Shown: piece by piece, positions 56,211 through 64,000 of the stretch
How positions within the stretch are numbered: position 1 is the first letter of the stretch
Layout: each line of letters begins with the position of its first letter
Origin: Fodinibius halophilus
GTDB taxonomy: Bacteria; Bacteroidota; Rhodothermia; Balneolales; Balneolaceae
Length of the DNA stretch: 64,000 bases
NCBI RefSeq assembly: GCF_011059105.1
Contig: NZ_JAALLS010000001.1
Span: 124,001 to 188,000, forward strand
Direction: 5' to 3'
Program-made: the position numbers and the translations under genes
Notes under the pieces: generated by a model
Told to the model about the DNA's origin: nothing
Database searches by the model: none
The model's input: only the letters and a program-made list of their open reading frames with translations

Positions 56211-56724
56211 GCTAAAAACCAATTTGAAAAGATTAAGAATTATTAAACTATCTGTTTTTCAATACGGAGCAGTTTTGAAAATTGTTACGAAAAGTTTTTG
56301 ACCGACTGGGAGAACGGTGTTTTTATTGGTTATAAAATTCCCATAAAAATGGCCATAGATTGCTATAAGGGCTGTTTTGAGGGGAGGCATATTTCTTAGA
56401 ACGAATAGGTCATATAAGCTAAATAAATTAGCAGCCAATCAATTTAGTATTTAAAAATATTGGTTTGGGAACCTTGTAAAACAATTTTATTAAGCCATTT
56501 TGTTCGCCCGCGGATCGGTTTTTTCTCCAATTCTGTTCTTCGTAATCTTTGTGACCAGCTTGGTCTCTCCCGACAGTATATTTGGTCTCGATGTAACTGA
56601 GGGAAAGAAACAGTTTGGCCTCTTTTCCCTTTATATTGATGGATATGTTTTGACCATTTCGGTGTTGGCTTATGATCCAGAATACCGTTATTATTATGGA
56701 TCTTATAATTTTAACGTACTGATT
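56211..56724. other. Gene-poor gap upstream of the B12 locus
   Basis: About 514 nt between the divergent adaptor gene and the first riboswitch. A plus-strand frame 56500-56730 (76 residues, ending IDGYVLTISVLAYDPEYRYY and more) and an overlapping minus-strand frame exist. Neither resembles a protein I know, and neither has a supporting start signal, so I call no gene. The promoter for the riboswitch-controlled operon should be here. Confidence 0.4.
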
Positions 56725-56944
56725 CAATAAAGGTCTGCATTAAATCAAATGCAGTTAAAATGGGAATCCGGTGATTGGTCTTACGCATTGCTAATACCCA
56801 AAGTCCGGAGCAGTCCCCGCTGCTGTAATCTCTACGCACCTAATAGGGTGTGACCTTTTGATAGCTGTTATATCCACTCCTGATGATAGATTTCGGGGGG
56901 AAGGTTCTCAAAAGTGGAGTAAGCCAGAAGACCTGCCCGTATTG
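56725..56944 (+). ncRNA. Cobalamin riboswitch 1 (ABC importer operon)
   Basis: The conserved cobalamin-aptamer elements occur in order: GGGAATCCGGTG (56762-56773), the core CCGGAGCAGTCCCCGCTGCTGTAAT (56805-56829), and AAGCCAGAAGACCTGCC (56921-56937). The last is the B12-box. A closing P1 stem CAATA (56725-56729)/TATTG (56940-56944) brackets them. A small hairpin AGCTTT..AAAGCT (56957-56973) between the aptamer and the btuF-like ATG at 56981 may be the expression platform that hides the start region when B12 is bound. Binding of adenosyl- or methylcobalamin is expected from the class. Confidence 0.93.
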
Positions 56945-56980
56945 ATGACGGAAAAAGCTTTCGGGAGAAAAGCTGTATCC

Positions 56981-58168
56981 ATGTTGCAACAACGCTTTTA
57001 CCATCTCTGTTTTCGTTTATTGATCATTGTCATCTTTCCGGTAGTTTTAACGGTAATAGCCTGCCAAAAAACATCGGAAAAGCCCAAGACCAGCAATGTT
57101 CCTGCCGATTCCACCTACTTTCAAGATCAGGTTCATACTGAATTTGCTGAAGGCTTCCAGATTGAGTACCACAACAACTATAAGCTACTCGAAATCCTAA
57201 AACCTTTTCAGGATAAGGTTGATACCCTGCGCTATGCTTTAGTACCCCGAGAATTGAAAGGGAAAGTAGATGTAGAAGGGGCACGTGCAATTCCTATTCC
57301 CATTCGCAGTATGGTTGCCAGTTCTACTACACATATTGGTCTTCTAGAAATGCTGGAAGCCAATGAAGTTCTCTCTGGGATGGTTGGTGCCGAGTATGTG
57401 TATAGCTCTAAAGTGAGAAAGGGGATTGAAAGCGGGGAGATAATGAGCCTGAAACAAGGAGAGATTAATAAAGAAAAAGTATTAGAATTAAATCCGGACC
57501 TGCTGATGATATCGGGCGGACAATCGTCACAGTTTGATAACTATCGGGTACTTATTGAATCAGGCATCAATATCCTGGTAAACTCTGAATGGTTGGAGAC
57601 CACCCCGCTGGGTAAAGCAGAGTGGGTGAAAGTAATGGCTGCTTTATTGAATAAAGAAAAGGTGGCGAATAAAAAGTTTGATGCTGTTGTAGCCCGGTAC
57701 AACAAATTGAAAGCTGCTACTGATACGGTATCACAAAAGCCGATGATTATAAACAGTATGCCCTATAAAGGAGCATGGTTTGTATCGGCAGGTGATAGTT
57801 TTGCTGCACAGTTTTTAAAAGATGCCGGGGCCGACTACCCCTGGCTGGATACGGAAGGCACTGGTGGATTGAGAAAAAGTTTTGAAGTAGTATATGAGCA
57901 AGGATTAGAAGCAGATATTTGGTTGAATCCCGGTTCTGCTCAAACGAAGGAAGATATTTTAGCCAAGGACAGCCGATTTAAGGAATTTAAAGCATTAAAA
58001 ACTGGAGAGATTTATAATAATAACAAGCGACTTCACCCCTCAGGAGGTAATGATTACTGGGAGTCCGGGGTGGTCAATCCCGATATTTTGTTGGCTGATC
58101 TTATTAAGATCCTACATCCCCAAATAGTTCCGGATCATCAACTCTATTACTACCAGAAAATTAAGTAA
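56981..58168 (+). CDS. BtuF-like corrinoid ABC transporter substrate-binding lipoprotein
   Basis: The reading frame is open from 56858, but that part lies inside the riboswitch; the ATG at 56981 (MLQQRFYHLCFRLL) gives 395 residues with a good signal peptide and lipobox VIAC (Cys 28). The mature protein is a class III (TroA/BtuF-like) periplasmic binding protein: PRELKGKVDVEGARAIPIPI, STTHIGLLEMLEANEVLSGM, NPDLLMISGGQ and KPMIINSMPYKGAWFVSAGD are the usual blocks, with a long helix between the lobes. It delivers substrate to the BtuC/BtuD genes that follow with overlapping starts. Corrinoid rather than iron-siderophore is inferred from the upstream cobalamin riboswitch. Confidence 0.88.
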   Translation: MLQQRFYHLCFRLLIIVIFPVVLTVIACQKTSEKPKTSNVPADSTYFQDQVHTEFAEGFQIEYHNNYKLLEILKPFQDKVDTLRYALVPRELKGKVDVEGARAIPIPIRSMVASSTTHIGLLEMLEANEVLSGMVGAEYVYSSKVRKGIESGEIMSLKQGEINKEKVLELNPDLLMISGGQSSQFDNYRVLIESGINILVNSEWLETTPLGKAEWVKVMAALLNKEKVANKKFDAVVARYNKLKAATDTVSQKPMIINSMPYKGAWFVSAGDSFAAQFLKDAGADYPWLDTEGTGGLRKSFEVVYEQGLEADIWLNPGSAQTKEDILAKDSRFKEFKALKTGEIYNNNKRLHPSGGNDYWESGVVNPDILLADLIKILHPQIVPDHQLYYYQKIK

Positions 58169-59244
58169 TGGGAAGATTAATGACTGATCAGCCACAACAA
58201 CACGGACCGGGCATACGTCCGCTTTACTTATTTCTGTTGGTTACCGGAGTATGTGTGCTATTTGTGTTAAACCTGGCTCTTGGTTCGGTTGATATTCCCA
58301 TAGAAGCTATTCTTCAGATTTTAGTGGGAGGAGAAGCCGGACAGGAATCTTGGCACAAAATTGTGGTAAATATTCGTCTGCCACGTGCGGTAACAGCCAT
58401 TATAGCTGGTAGTGCTTTGGCTGTGGGTGGCCTCCAGATGCAGACGCTGTTTCGAAATCCATTGGCCGGACCTTCGGTATTGGGCATCACGGCAGGAGCC
58501 AGCTTAGGTGTTGCCGTTGTGATGTTAGCAGCCGGAACTATCACCAGTATTTTTGCCATTCAACAGCTTTCGGCCATGGGAAGCTGGCTCATTGTGTTAG
58601 CTGCCAGCTTGGGATCGGCTGCCGTGTTACTGCTTATTTTACTGATATCCATTAAAGTGCGTGATAATGTGACGCTACTCATTATCGGTTTGATGATAGG
58701 CAATGTTACCATCGCTCTCGTAAGTATTTGGCAATATTTCAGCCGTCCCGAGCAGATTCAGGATTATCTCATTTGGACTTTTGGTAGCCTGGGTGGGGTG
58801 CCACTGGATCAACTCTGGATTTTAGCAGCAGTTGCTGTTGTGGGAGGGGGAATAGCCCTGGTACTGTCGAAACCATTGAATGGGCTGTTACTTGGTGAAA
58901 ACTATGCGCGCAGTATGGGGCTGTCGGTTGCCAGCACGCGCATATGGATTATTGTGAGTACCAGTCTGCTGGCCGGAGGTATTACCGCTTTTTGTGGTCC
59001 CATCGGTTTTGTGGGGATTGCGGTGCCTCATTTAACCCGCTCACTTTTAGGTACCAACGACCACCGGGTGTTGATTCCCAGTACATTGTTAATGGGAGCC
59101 ATTCTGCTGTTGGCTTGCGATATTATTGCGCAGGTACCCGGTTCCACAACCACACTTCCTATCAGTGCTGTAACATCCTTGGTGGGTTCGCCGGTAGTAA
59201 TATGGGTAATCATCCAACGCAAAAACCTGCAGGCCTCATTTTGA
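58168..59244 (+). CDS. BtuC/FecD-like ABC transporter permease
   Basis: A 358-residue permease of the FecCD/BtuC family with about ten membrane helices. Typical blocks are NIRLPRAVTAIIAGSALAVG followed by LQMQTLFRNPLAGPSVLGIT, then TFGSLGGVPLDQLW, GENYARSMGLSV and GPIGFVGIAVPHLTRSLLGT with the coupling sequence. The C-terminal AVTSLVGSPVVIWVIIQRKN is standard. Its ATG overlaps the btuF-like stop codon by one base (TAATG) and its stop overlaps the ATP-binding gene, so the three are co-translated. Corrinoid transport is inferred from the riboswitch. Confidence 0.92.
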   Translation: MGRLMTDQPQQHGPGIRPLYLFLLVTGVCVLFVLNLALGSVDIPIEAILQILVGGEAGQESWHKIVVNIRLPRAVTAIIAGSALAVGGLQMQTLFRNPLAGPSVLGITAGASLGVAVVMLAAGTITSIFAIQQLSAMGSWLIVLAASLGSAAVLLLILLISIKVRDNVTLLIIGLMIGNVTIALVSIWQYFSRPEQIQDYLIWTFGSLGGVPLDQLWILAAVAVVGGGIALVLSKPLNGLLLGENYARSMGLSVASTRIWIIVSTSLLAGGITAFCGPIGFVGIAVPHLTRSLLGTNDHRVLIPSTLLMGAILLLACDIIAQVPGSTTTLPISAVTSLVGSPVVIWVIIQRKNLQASF

Positions 59245-60269
59245 TGGAGTTTGAAAAACAGATCATATCTACGGAGGAATTGAGTATCGGCTTTCCGGCC
59301 CGCCGAACTATGGGGACTCCTACAGTAGTAGCTTCAGATATTGATGTAGTTCTCAACAGTGGGGAGATTGTTTGCTTGTTGGGACCCAACGGATCGGGTA
59401 AGTCAACGCTTATCCGAACGTTGACCGGATTGCACCGTCCTCTTGGAGGATTAATTGAGTTAGAAGACCAAAAATTACAGGCCTTTTCTGCTAAGCAGAT
59501 TGCTAAAAAGGTAAGTACGGTGCTTACCGACCGGCTTACAATCGGTAATTTGAGTGTTTACGAACTGGTATCGTTTGGCCGGTCACCCTATACGGGATGG
59601 TTTGGGTCGCTCAGTAAACAGGATGAAGAGATTGTTGACTGGGCAATACAGTCAACCGGCATTGAACAGTTTGTAAATAGGGATGTGCTTCGGCTCAGTG
59701 ACGGGGAGCGCCAAAAGGTGATGATTGCCCGGGCGTTGGCCCAAAACACCTCAGCCATCATGCTTGACGAGCCGACCGCTCACCTGGATCTGCCTAATAG
59801 GGTAGAGATCATTCGCCTGCTCCGAGAACTGGCCCATGACACCCAAAAAGGAATTCTACTGTCCACCCACGAACTGGATCTGGCTCTTAAGGCAGCTGAT
59901 ACATTATGGTTAATCGATATGAATGGTAATGTAATTACCGGCACGCCCGAAGATTTGGTGTTGGATGGTACTTTTGAGTCGGTTTTTGAACGCGACAGCT
60001 TTGAATTTGATCGCAGCACGGGCTCATTTAAGCTGCTCCATCCCCAAAAAGCCCCGATTTATTTACATGGTGATGCGGTGGGTCAGTTTTGGACACGGCG
60101 GGCCCTGGAGCGATCGGGATACCAGGTAAAAGAATCGAATGGCACCGATATTCAGGTAGAGGTCAAACGAACGGGCAATGATTTTGAATGGAGGCTGCAT
60201 TGCTGTGAAGACCATTTTGAGTGTAATTCTATTGAAGTAATGTTAGAACAGCTAAAGAAATATTGTTAG
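59244..60269 (+). CDS. BtuD/FecE-like ABC transporter ATP-binding protein with C-terminal extension
   Basis: Start chosen at the ATG at 59244 (MEFEKQIISTEELSIGF), which overlaps the permease stop (TGATG); an upstream-extended frame covers the permease gene and is discarded. The protein has 341 residues: Walker A GPNGSGKST (47-55), signature LSDGERQKVMIARAL (about 151-165), Walker B AIMLDEPTAHLD (about 172-183) and the switch histidine in LLSTHELDLAL. After about residue 250 there is an extra domain (TGSFKLLHPQKAPIYLHGDA, then VGQFWTRRALERSGYQVKES to the end) that E. coli BtuD lacks. It powers import through the BtuC-like permease. The role of the tail is unknown. Confidence 0.9.
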   Translation: MEFEKQIISTEELSIGFPARRTMGTPTVVASDIDVVLNSGEIVCLLGPNGSGKSTLIRTLTGLHRPLGGLIELEDQKLQAFSAKQIAKKVSTVLTDRLTIGNLSVYELVSFGRSPYTGWFGSLSKQDEEIVDWAIQSTGIEQFVNRDVLRLSDGERQKVMIARALAQNTSAIMLDEPTAHLDLPNRVEIIRLLRELAHDTQKGILLSTHELDLALKAADTLWLIDMNGNVITGTPEDLVLDGTFESVFERDSFEFDRSTGSFKLLHPQKAPIYLHGDAVGQFWTRRALERSGYQVKESNGTDIQVEVKRTGNDFEWRLHCCEDHFECNSIEVMLEQLKKYC

Positions 60270-60337
60270 ATATGAAATTTTTAATGGTTAACACGCTTTT
60301 ATTTTCTAGTTAAAGGTTATACCTTACAGCGCTCTTT

Positions 60338-60543
60338 GAAATAGTGATTCGGTTCCCCATTAGTACTGGGGTGAAAAGGGAATTTCGTGACCGAGCGTTC
60401 TAGCTTGGGAATCGGAAGCTGTACCCGCAACTGTAATTCCGTGAAATAACTATCGCATATCTTTGTGTCACTATCTACCTGCCGGTGGATGGGAAGGCCC
60501 GATAGTTGGAAAAGCCAGGAGACCTGCCAATCGATTCTATTTC
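60338..60543 (+). ncRNA. Cobalamin riboswitch 2 (TonB receptor operon)
   Basis: Conserved elements in order: AAAAGGGAAT (60374-60383), ATCGGAAGCTGTACCCGCAACTGTAAT (60411-60437) and AAAGCCAGGAGACCTGCC (60511-60528, the B12-box). An extended closing stem is GAAATAG (60338-60344) with CTATTTC (60537-60543). An extra hairpin CTATCTACCTGCCGG..GATAG lies within the variable part. The receptor ATG follows at 60582. With riboswitch 1 this puts importer and receptor under the same signal in separate transcripts. Confidence 0.93.
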
Positions 60544-60581
60544 GAGGAACTTTCGGGAGTTAAAGTTTCTACGAGGATTTT

Positions 60582-62507
60582 ATGTTAAAACTATGTATTC
60601 GTTATAGCACAGCTATAATTTGTTGTGTCCTTTTTCTTACCCCTATTACCACTTATGGGCAAACTGTAAGTGATACGCTTCAGTTGGATGAAATTGAAGT
60701 GAAAGCCACTCGTATATACCAGCCAAGAAACTACCAACCTACCAATGTAGAAGTTATTGATTCGGTGCAGCTTGAGATGTTAAAGACCTTATCAGTAGCT
60801 GAGGTGTTAGCCTCACAGTCCTCTCTTATGATTAAAGATTATGGGCCCGGCGGGATGGCTACAGCATCACAACGTGGGCTCTCTTCAGAGCAGATACAGG
60901 TATTGTGGGAAGGAATTCCCATCAACAGCCCAATGCAGGGACAGGCAGATTTATCATTGCTGCCGGCCAGCTTTTTCTCAAATGTACAGGTTAGTTCCGG
61001 CACGCCCAGTACCGCTTTTGGCGGAGGAAGTCTTTCGGGTGCACTTTATCTCGGATCAGATTGGAAACAAACGAATTATGTTTCCACGCATCAAAGTATT
61101 GGGTCTTTTGGTCAGTGGCAATCGTCGGTGCAGGGCAAGTATAATGCTGATGGGGTTCTGGTATCAGTTCGGGGGCTCTATGATTATGGAGATAATGACT
61201 ATGAATATTTTAGCCGCGCTTATAATAGAGTTGAAAAACGAAAGCACAACCGGAGTAAACGCTACAGTGTAATGAGTTCGGTTGGACAAAACAGAGATTC
61301 TGATCAATGGAAAACTACTTTCTGGCTATCTGATAGTAAAAACCAGATCCCTGGTGATATACTTAGTACGAACCCCAAGGCACGACAAAATGATAAGTCA
61401 TTACGTTGGTTGAGTTCATACGATAAAAATTGGGGTGATACGGAGCTGGCATTTAAGAATTATTTAGAAAAGATAAAGCTGAATTACTTTGATCCCGGCA
61501 ATGGTACTCGCAGCTTAAGTACGACCAAACGTTGGATGGTAAGTTCCACTGCTATCCATTCGGTTGGTGAACACTTGTTACTAAAGGGGGAGGTTAGTGG
61601 TGAATTGACAAGTGTTGAGACAAATAATTATAAAGACATTAAGAATCGACAACAGTTTAGTGTATTAACGAACCCAGAGCTTACACTAGACAGTCAACGG
61701 TTGCGTATTTATCCGTCATTGCGGGTTGATATGTATAGTGATTTTGGAACGGTATTAAGTCCTTCATTGGGAGCAAATTATGAACTGTTTGCAGACCGTC
61801 TCTTTTTGCGCGGGCAATTGAGTCGCGATTTTAATGCACCATCATTTAATGCCCTGTATTGGGGAGATGCCGGCGATCCTAACCTTAAACCTGAGCGAAG
61901 TAACAGTGCAGAGTTGGGAGTTTCCTTAAGCCAAACGCAGTTTGTAGGGATTACCTCCCTCGATATTACGGGGTACTACAGTAAGGTGGATAATGGTATT
62001 CGGTGGTATCCTAATAATTCGGGACAATGGGCACCGAGTAATGTGGAGCAGGTAACGACTAAAGGAATTGAAGCCCATCTTACCAATACTTTTTTATATG
62101 AAGGACCATGGTTATTAACGATTGATCAGAAAGGAATAATGACAAGTACAGAGATTTCAGAAGCTCGTTTCCGGGGAGATCAAGGGGTAGGTAATCAAGT
62201 CCGCCTGGTACCCAAATGGAAGTATAACGCATCGCTGACACTACAACGAGGCATTGCTACAGCGGTTCTAAAATACCGTTGGATAAGTAGAAGATATTTG
62301 ACAGAAACCGAAGCTGTCAGCAATTCTCTAGATCCATATCAAGTGATAGATGCTCACCTGCAACTGAAGAAAACGTATCAAAATTTCAATCTAAAAGTAC
62401 TGGCAGCAGCTAAAAACATACTTGGTGAGAACTATGAAATTATCAGCTGGTATCCCATGCCTAAACGGAACTACAACTTTTCAATAACTGCAACCTATAA
62501 ATTCTAA
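60582..62507 (+). CDS. TonB-dependent corrinoid receptor (BtuB-like)
   Basis: A 641-residue outer-membrane receptor. Signal peptide (about 1-27, ending TYGQT) is followed by the TonB-box-like DTLQLDEIEVKATRI, the plug domain (about 45-165; LASQSSLMIKDYGPGGMATA, RGLSSEQIQVLWEGIPINSP, FGGGSLSGALYL) and a 22-strand barrel to the C-terminal aromatic YNFSITATYKF. Length is near E. coli BtuB (614). The cobalamin riboswitch just upstream and the corrinoid genes around it support the vitamin as substrate. The gene for the propeller lipoprotein begins 12 nt downstream. Confidence 0.92.
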   Translation: MLKLCIRYSTAIICCVLFLTPITTYGQTVSDTLQLDEIEVKATRIYQPRNYQPTNVEVIDSVQLEMLKTLSVAEVLASQSSLMIKDYGPGGMATASQRGLSSEQIQVLWEGIPINSPMQGQADLSLLPASFFSNVQVSSGTPSTAFGGGSLSGALYLGSDWKQTNYVSTHQSIGSFGQWQSSVQGKYNADGVLVSVRGLYDYGDNDYEYFSRAYNRVEKRKHNRSKRYSVMSSVGQNRDSDQWKTTFWLSDSKNQIPGDILSTNPKARQNDKSLRWLSSYDKNWGDTELAFKNYLEKIKLNYFDPGNGTRSLSTTKRWMVSSTAIHSVGEHLLLKGEVSGELTSVETNNYKDIKNRQQFSVLTNPELTLDSQRLRIYPSLRVDMYSDFGTVLSPSLGANYELFADRLFLRGQLSRDFNAPSFNALYWGDAGDPNLKPERSNSAELGVSLSQTQFVGITSLDITGYYSKVDNGIRWYPNNSGQWAPSNVEQVTTKGIEAHLTNTFLYEGPWLLTIDQKGIMTSTEISEARFRGDQGVGNQVRLVPKWKYNASLTLQRGIATAVLKYRWISRRYLTETEAVSNSLDPYQVIDAHLQLKKTYQNFNLKVLAAAKNILGENYEIISWYPMPKRNYNFSITATYKF

Positions 62508-62519
62508 ATATATACTATA

Positions 62520-63572
62520 ATGAAACAACGATACTCAATACTTCTTTTATCATTGGTGCTTGTTATAGCATCATGTGGAAAAGATAATGGCAATAATACT
62601 GATCCGTTAGAAGATGCCACAGTTTATGTGCTTAATGAAGGGAACTTTAGTTCTGCAAATGGATCTATTACAAGTTACAGTCCTGAATCGGGCAGTACCA
62701 CCTTACAAGCTTTTGATAAGGCAAACGGTCGTCCCATGGCAGGTTATCTGCAAACTTCAAAAGTAATTGGTGATCGCCTGTATATTGTATCAAATAAAGC
62801 CAATAAAATTGAAATTGTAGATAAAAATTCACTAAAAAGCGAAGGAACTATTGAATTTACTTATTCTCCTACTGCTATAGAGGTGGTGGACGAAACCGCG
62901 TATGTAGGTCTTTATCAATACAATCAAAATAGTGAAGATATAAGAAGAATTATTGCTTATGATTTGGCTAACATGAAAAAAACGGATCAAAAAACAGATG
63001 TGAGTTCTATGGTCCGTGATATTGAGTTTGCGGGCGGCAAGTTATATGCCACAAATAATGGAGGGAATACGGTAACTGTTCTTGATCCTTCAGATATTTC
63101 TATTGAGAAAACAATTAATGTAGGATATGCACCAAATGAAATGTTACTCGATAATGAAGATCGAATTTGGATTGCTTGTAATGGATCGTCGTACACAGAT
63201 AAACCCGCTAGCCTTTATGTTCTAGACGCTCAAACAGCTACAAAGATTGATTCGATTGTTACAGGCGTTGAGGTCGGAACCACATCGTACCAAAAACGTA
63301 TGTCATTGAACGTTGAAAAAGCAGAAGCCTATTTGATCAATGATGGTATCTCTGTAATTGATATGAATACGTATTCAATAAAAGAACAGGCAATTGATAC
63401 TGAGTCTTTCTATTCAATTGGTTATTTCCCTTTGCAGGAGCGTATTTATACTGGCAAAAGTAAAGGCACCTCTCAAGCCGGTAAAGGGTATGTTTATGAT
63501 CTGAAAGGGACTGCTGTGGATTCTTTTAACGTAGGTATTATTCCCCACAAGTTTCATTTTACAAGCAACTGA
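62520..63572 (+). CDS. BtuG-like surface beta-propeller lipoprotein
   Basis: A 350-residue lipoprotein with lipobox IASC (Cys about 19). It then shows repeated YVTN/YncE-type blades (VYVLNEGNFSSANGSITSYS, LYIVSNKANKIEIVDKN, LYATNNGGNTVTVLDP and IWIACNGS-type segments), consistent with a seven-bladed propeller. It follows the TonB-dependent receptor by 12 nt under the same cobalamin riboswitch. In Bacteroides thetaiotaomicron the propeller lipoprotein BtuG caps BtuB and binds vitamin B12 with extreme affinity; this gene occupies the same place and has the same fold class. Equivalence is inferred from neighbourhood and repeat type, as pairwise identity was not computed. DUF5074 is the closest named domain I recognise. 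Confidence 0.8.
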   Translation: MKQRYSILLLSLVLVIASCGKDNGNNTDPLEDATVYVLNEGNFSSANGSITSYSPESGSTTLQAFDKANGRPMAGYLQTSKVIGDRLYIVSNKANKIEIVDKNSLKSEGTIEFTYSPTAIEVVDETAYVGLYQYNQNSEDIRRIIAYDLANMKKTDQKTDVSSMVRDIEFAGGKLYATNNGGNTVTVLDPSDISIEKTINVGYAPNEMLLDNEDRIWIACNGSSYTDKPASLYVLDAQTATKIDSIVTGVEVGTTSYQKRMSLNVEKAEAYLINDGISVIDMNTYSIKEQAIDTESFYSIGYFPLQERIYTGKSKGTSQAGKGYVYDLKGTAVDSFNVGIIPHKFHFTSN

Positions 63573-63750: not shown

Positions 63751-64000
63751 ATGATCCACTTAATAACCGGCGGACAGCGATCGGGCAAAAGCAGCAGGGC
63801 CCAGGAGCTTGCTCTATCATTAACCGACAGTCCGGTATACATTGCTACGGCACGCGTTTGGGATGAGGACTTTGAGCAGCGCGTGGAACGGCATAAAGAT
63901 GATCGTGACGAGCGGTGGACTAGCCTCGAAGTTGAAAAAGCGTTGGGAGATATTGAGGTCAAAGCAGAAGTTGTGGTTGTCGATTGTATTACACTTTGGC
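63751..64000 (+). CDS. cobU: Adenosylcobinamide kinase/guanylyltransferase, N-terminal part
   Basis: The first 83 residues are in the window; the gene runs off the right edge. The N-terminus MIHLITGGQRSGKSSRAQEL is a CobU P-loop (GGQRSGKSS), followed by YIATARVWDEDFEQRVERHK with the conserved HK(x) guanylylated histidine region, and VVVDCITLW for the D-x-x-T-x-x metal site. CobU phosphorylates adenosylcobinamide and attaches GMP, the entry to nucleotide-loop assembly used for salvage. It starts 79 nt after a strong terminator, so it begins a new transcript that probably continues into cobS/cobT beyond the window. No riboswitch lies in the short gap. Confidence 0.93.
   Translation, partial: MIHLITGGQRSGKSSRAQELALSLTDSPVYIATARVWDEDFEQRVERHKDDRDERWTSLEVEKALGDIEVKAEVVVVDCITLW

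Follow-up and report, generated by a model that had tools for sequence, protein, structure and literature searches.

Vitamin B12 capture by BtuG, a propeller lipoprotein serving as a lid for the receptor BtuB, is known from gut Bacteroides, and BtuG is called exclusive to Bacteroidetes in PMC6143338 on the basis of 313 gut genomes. No paper on BtuG from non-gut organisms was found among the openly licensed PMC papers, which were covered mostly by listing. A 64,000-nucleotide stretch of the Fodinibius halophilus genome (hereafter the window) raises the question of how far the lid extends beyond the gut, and for how long it has done so. The sequence-only reading of this stretch had pointed to a YncE-type lipoprotein gene directly after a btuB-like gene with a cobalamin riboswitch ahead of it, in a presumably environmental phylum, and had supposed that the lid either predates the gut lineage or arose twice. 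The arrangement is as described, with 12 nt between the two genes, which share strand and frame, and an Rfam match of 85.2 bits for the riboswitch; the host, a member of the Balneolaceae, likewise bears out the environmental attribution. The features of the locus are collected in Table 1.

Table 1. Features of the B12 locus, in window coordinates.
Feature	Position	Strand	Basis
Cobalamin riboswitch 1, before btuF	56714..56954	+	Rfam RF00174, 83.7 bits, cut-off 31.5
btuF-like substrate-binding lipoprotein	56981..58168	+	PF01497; start inferred
btuC permease	58168..59244	+	FecCD, PF01032; best NCBIfam model BtuC, below cut-off
btuD ATPase	59241..60269	+	ABC_tran; start inferred
Cobalamin riboswitch 2, directly before btuB	60332..60545	+	Rfam RF00174, 85.2 bits, cut-off 31.5
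btuB, TonB-dependent corrinoid receptor, 641 aa, plug and barrel	60582..62507	+	PF07715, PF00593, PDB BtuB matches
btuG homologue, window-type	62520..63572	+	ATG start, 350-aa lipoprotein, 7-bladed propeller
Lipobox Cys19 codon (lipid anchor)	62574..62576	+	Recognised by eye; GKDNGNNTD after Cys
Pliers-loop equivalent NEGNFSSANGS, residues 39-49	62634..62666	+	Alignment to BtuG2 Asn54-Thr64
cobU, cobinamide kinase/guanylyltransferase	63751..64000	+	PF02283 5e-26; continues past window end

The gene at 62520-63572 is confirmed as a BtuG homologue; it forms a pair with btuB, and a B12 riboswitch precedes the two. Its product has a signal peptide with the lipobox VIAS-C19 and gives the sole match to Pfam DUF5074 above cut-off in its genome (E 1.9e-17, 63.8 bits against a cut-off of 27.2), where the gene is present in one copy. 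A phmmer search of the PDB placed twelve BtuG-type chains at the top, from 8bmx_D (1.2e-18) to 8blw_B (4.8e-8), among which 8puj is included on score alone, and the first match after them was 1l0q at 4e-4. The AlphaFold2 model (23-row alignment) is a propeller with pLDDT 88.7 and pTM 0.85. Searched with Foldseek, it returned BtuG in all of the top 16 rows, and in VIA-align the top 11 rows were BtuG (Z 36.3-38.3, rmsd 2.0-2.6, 303-308 residues aligned), with the next fold at Z 30.7.

The receptor was matched in the same way. Its top four PDB matches, at 1.8e-38 to 1.2e-23, come from solved BtuBG complexes and are in each case the BtuB chain, and the NCBIfam BtuB model scores 117.8 bits, under its cut-off of 599.7. 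The two proteins were also modelled as one fused chain in which the btuB stop was read as Q; 36 of the best 80 loci described below gave a complete close pair, L038 was excluded from the fold alignment, and the resulting 57-row alignment held 15 fused rows, the window included, together with separate proteins from 21 loci. The best 15 structural rows for the barrel part were E. coli or Bacteroides BtuB (Z 39.7-43.3), followed by ChuA (Z 38.7). Both parts of the read-through model are well folded (pLDDT 88.3), but the model did not place the lid, its pTM of 0.64 being about the value expected from the larger part alone. The position equivalent to Y538 of BtuB3, in loop EL8, is occupied by a Trp, within GQWAPSN (residues 481-487), and an aromatic residue (W, Y or F) stands there in 62 of 70 BtuBs; the aromatic is possibly a general feature of TonB receptors. 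Taken together, we consider it quite probable that 60582-63572 is a BtuB-BtuG corrinoid uptake pair, and for the window lid we infer surface exposure, corrinoid binding, capping and hand-over.

Read beyond the window end (extended locus L145), the gene order is riboswitch-btuF-btuC-btuD-riboswitch-btuB-btuG-cobU-cobT-cobS-cobC-(Dph6-like)-nrdJ, where nrdJ encodes a vitamin B12-dependent (class II) ribonucleotide reductase well above cut-off. The btuF-like reading frame is open from a TTG at 56858 and that of btuD from 58944; their starts were set at the ATG just after the riboswitch and at the ATG that overlaps the btuC stop, respectively. In all ten extended loci of the window type, the riboswitch ends 34-41 nt ahead of btuB. 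In this 98.6% complete genome CbiC was not found and CobQ gave no match above cut-off, these being the two families tested. Most likely, then, corrinoids are taken up and completed by the organism, which would not make the ring itself. The third cobalamin riboswitch of the genome, and the strongest at 124 bits, lies ahead of metE, which is followed by the genes for the beta and alpha subunits of a class I ribonucleotide reductase (L146); metE and this reductase are B12-independent stand-ins that B12 probably shuts off. The gene between cobC and nrdJ resembles Dph6/diphthine-ammonia ligase (PF01902, L145:12993-13715) and has kin in three other B12 loci (L135, L138, L144).

In the mechanism that we propose, a lipid-anchored BtuG propeller on the cell surface would capture a corrinoid and shut over BtuB, and loop EL8 of the receptor would assist in pressing the ligand inward. 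TonB would drive the corrinoid to the periplasm, BtuF-BtuCD would import it, and CobU, CobT, CobS and CobC would complete salvaged cobinamide, the product of which could be used by the adjoining class II ribonucleotide reductase; plentiful B12 would shut the genes off through the riboswitches.

Across the Bacteroidota/Balneolota/Kryptoniota/Chlorobiota group, to which the searches were confined, the pair is common and is no rarity outside Bacteroides, so that the exceptional status which it was first given there does not hold. The window protein as query had matches in 79 of 198 sampled genomes of its GTDB phylum and BtuG2 in 169 of 394 sampled genomes, and in the family 37 of 92 genomes gave a match. 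Of 30 loci from the first sample, the window's own included, the 1.5-kb flank contains a BtuB-like match in 26. A scan of named genomes then provided 194 relatives, the best 80 of which were kept; since its search pattern contained the NEGNF loop, relatives without that loop are under-sampled. The best 80 come from Balneolaceae, Kryptoniota, Chlorobiales, Cytophagia, Flavobacteriia, Saprospiria, Chitinophaga, Sphingobacteriia and Bacteroidales. Among these 80, the start of the lid gene is preceded by a BtuB-like gene at no more than 400 bp in 51; for the 72 loci that have 2.3 kb or more of sequence on that side, the count is 47. A further 12 have a BtuB-like gene within 5.5 kb and one has it downstream, and BtuB was not found near 16, four of which have less than 2.3 kb of upstream sequence. 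A riboswitch-like motif precedes at least 45 of the 80 and occurs nowhere else in the 1.06 Mb; the figure is a lower bound because, of the two riboswitches in the window, the regular expression picks up just one. Riboswitch-btuB-btuG is the most frequent arrangement across the group. Seven Bacteroidales metagenome-assembled genomes, three of them with goat or red deer labels, have a BtuG-like gene near which no BtuB was found and which is followed, at 1.1-1.6 kb, by a btuF-like gene (L072, L075, L086, L089, L095, L101 and L102); in L072 both upstream neighbours of the BtuG-like gene bear type IX secretion (T9SS) sorting tails.

Two quick, unrooted trees with SH-aLRT support bear on the age of the pair. 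In the tree of 121 lids, from which 8 duplicate BtuG rows had been removed beforehand, Bacteroides BtuG2 is nested among the Bacteroidales (support 91), the Balneolia, Rhodothermia, Kryptoniota and Chlorobi rows fall on a separate side (95), and a Balneolaceae clade of 12 rows (99) takes in the window protein, near the canonical lids of Balneola. The BtuB tree (70 rows) is concordant with it on both the Balneolales (18 rows, 99) and the window clade (12 rows, 97). Lid and receptor distances are correlated over 63 pairs (Spearman 0.51, with none of 999 permutations as high), although this correlation is inflated by the common species tree and species history alone would also produce one. The wide spread of the lid and the nested position of BtuG2 argue that the lid predates the gut lineage, as the sequence-only reading had suspected, and its other option, a double origin, is not needed for one homologous family with a congruent pair history. 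The simplest reading is of a single ancient pair that antedates the gut lineage. In Mucilaginibacter (L099, L109) lid and receptor are each placed, in their respective trees, on the side of Kryptoniota/Chlorobi, as though the two had been transferred together.

Against this background, two accounts that would make the locus either accidental or derivative have little to recommend them. A generic YncE propeller might have come to lie beside btuB by chance, propellers being common and 16 of the best 80 relatives having no BtuB found near them; however, the best matches in both sequence and fold are all BtuG, at VIA Z scores well clear of the next fold, and adjacency to btuB is conserved in distant lineages, so that we find coincidence scarcely credible. 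Recent acquisition of the pair from gut Bacteroides, or a second origin of the lid, is only slightly less improbable; nothing was found in its favour, and it was rejected on the two trees, where BtuG2 stands with the Bacteroidales, far from the Balneolaceae rows, and the receptors agree.

Comparison with the contact residues of BtuG2, which had been put forward as a check, gave a divided answer: the pliers loop is kept and several residues conserved in the family are lost. BtuG2 numbering is used here, that of 8bmx_D agreeing with the residues named in PMC10404256 at all 13 positions checked. The pliers loop is given there as Asn54-Thr64, and within it the window protein retains N54, E55, G56, N57, F58 and N62. 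At the 59 positions identical among B12-bound BtuG1, BtuG2 and BtuG3, the window clade keeps a mean of 29.6, against 35.4 in the sister clade (7 rows), 35.8 in T9SS-tailed Balneolaceae (11), 36.0 in the f2 family (4) and 37.7 in the others (86). Forty-one positions are conserved in at least 75% of the 108 other rows; at least 10 of the 12 window-clade rows keep 25 of these and lose seven, namely G89, D90, S109, R133, E180, Y316 and A332, the rows being relatives and the losses not independent events. The first five are present in all three B12-bound solved BtuGs. In the window protein Y316 is still present, and N108, D331 and Y335 are missing as well. An alignment slip at E180 was considered and dismissed, phmmer pairing this position with V165 and MAFFT with R166, so that the Glu is missing both ways. 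At the contacts W194, Y239, W272, Y316 and Y335 named in the text of PMC10404256, the residues of the window protein are N, S, Y, Y and T; BtuG1, a solved B12 binder, has S, D, a gap, F and Y, and so itself differs at four.

The exchanges have a pattern of their own. A89 and G90 each occur in 11 of the 12 rows of the window clade, E180 is replaced by R in six and by Q in four, and D331 by K, Q or H in eight; because the clade has conserved states of its own, decay as the sole explanation was rejected. That the change is unique to this clade was rejected in part: conserved positions are also lost in t9f2 (9 of 40, R133 included; 4 rows) and in Kryptoniota (4 of 41, R133 and E180 included; 4 rows). 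Elsewhere the losses are 5 of 39 in the sister clade (7 rows), 1 of 41 in T9SS-tailed Balneolaceae (11 rows), none of 40 in the Hymenobacteraceae group (8 rows), 1 of 40 in the Flavobacterium type (6 rows) and 3 of 40 in the Bacteroidales without BtuB (7 rows). As Kryptoniota lids without R133 and E180, and f2 lids without R133, stand in btuB-linked loci, these two residues may be dispensable in the lid. Two further lids of family f29 (L024, L026), a separate btuB-linked lineage, also have A-G at 89-90 and are without S109. According to PMC10404256, the 13 hydrogen bonds lie in blades 1-4 and are made by highly conserved residues; judged by conservation and blade register, the lost residues would be among those that contact the corrin through hydrogen bonds. 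The conservation analysis described there covered homologues at 35-95% identity, a range that leaves the window type outside. What is new here is the 12-member Balneolaceae clade, in which conserved residues of the lid have been replaced in an apparently clade-specific way.

With scaffold and pliers loop kept and conserved residues exchanged, the lid of the window clade probably binds corrinoids through contacts that differ in part from those of other lids. One version of this, somewhat less likely than not, is that the clade rebuilt its ligand pocket, the near-universal G89-D90, S109, R133 and E180 giving way to an A-G turn and to residues that are neutral or basic, and with them to other contacts or another corrinoid preference, for example for a corrinoid with more negative charge. 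Rather doubtful is the view that the exchanged residues sit at the lid-receptor interface or shape loops, corrinoid binding being as in BtuG2. The solved lid does bury a large interface, with its ligand site toward BtuB, and the main-text sections of PMC10404256 that were available do not itemise the hydrogen-bonding residues; but R133 and E180 would fall, going by the BtuG2 sequence, in the loop segment of the contacts W272 and Y316 (9-14 residues before the inner strand of each blade), S109 would fall on the same basis in the strand-end segment of W194, Y239 and Y335, and the hydrogen bonds of blades 1-4 involve highly conserved residues. We think it unlikely that tight B12 binding has been lost in this clade, its lid serving as a passive gate or binding something else, such as another corrinoid form or a carrier, and leaving specificity to BtuB alone. 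Such a loss would suit the clade-wide absence of G89, D90, S109, R133 and E180, with acidic residues exchanged for basic or neutral ones, and also the mean pairwise identity of btuG within the genus, which at 0.49 is the lowest of six locus proteins (btuB 0.59, btuF 0.66, btuD 0.69 and btuC 0.81, from 8 genomes each; nrdJ 0.90, from 6); the lid/receptor ratio of log identities is 1.33 in the genus and 0.55-1.15 in six other groups. Yet btuG lies beside btuB under B12 riboswitches in all ten extended loci, A89 and G90 are conserved as states of the clade, and the Kryptoniota, which are without R133 and E180, nevertheless have riboswitch-btuB-btuG loci.

Rebuilt or not, the window pair is readily compared with known lids. 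With BtuG2/BtuG3-BtuB2/BtuB3 of Bacteroides thetaiotaomicron (8bmx, 8bmy, 8bai, 8p97, 8p98; PMC6143338 and PMC10404256) it has in common a 7-bladed lipoprotein propeller (VIA Z 36.5-38.3, rmsd 2.1-2.2), a btuB neighbour, a cobalamin riboswitch, the NEGNF..N loop and the EL8 aromatic. It differs in its 22-23% identity over the structure, a shorter blade-5 loop, the exchange of G89, D90, N108, S109, R133, E180, D331 and Y335, and the presence of cobUTSC-nrdJ after btuG; a BtuH-type lipoprotein was not noticed in its locus. BtuG1 (8blw_B, 8ptd) is also a propeller with a btuB neighbour, but it retains G89, D90, S109, R133 and E180 and carries a BtuH-like C-terminal domain, and the window protein has neither. 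The canonical lipoprotein BtuG of Balneola (L002-L008, L032-L035), 33-35% identical to the window protein, has a similar locus order, riboswitch-btuB-btuG-nrdJ (L149), and retains G89, D90, S109, R133, E180 and Y316 in 7 of 7 clade rows, unlike the window clade. BtuK1 (9s6c), a B12-binding propeller of like fold, is clearly under the BtuG rows (Z 29.8, 14-16% identity).

Lid-and-channel B12 uptake is on this evidence an old and common outfit of environmental bacteria in the wider group, one that did not evolve for gut competition. The natural variants, with their exchanged residues and T9SS tails, offer access to the residues behind femtomolar B12 binding and to the role of the anchor. The lids of f2, a second Balneolales family, and of Kryptoniota have changed partly other sets of residues, and the two f29 lids have the A-G turn too; should the pocket of the window clade indeed be rebuilt, BtuG would amount to a naturally occurring collection of alternative corrinoid sites built on a single scaffold.

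The anchor itself varies among Balneolales lids. The lipobox is present in most rows of the window clade, and most have Asp or Asn after the Cys; residues +1 to +4 are GKDN in the window protein against MKWD in BtuG2. In 8 of the 30 loci of the first sample (L010, L016, L018, L019, L021, L022, L023 and L025), the lid beside btuB is without the lipobox Cys and has a C-terminal T9SS type A sorting domain instead, so its attachment would be by type IX secretion and not by lipid. TIGR04183 was above cut-off in all four such lids tested (L018, L019, L010 and L021).
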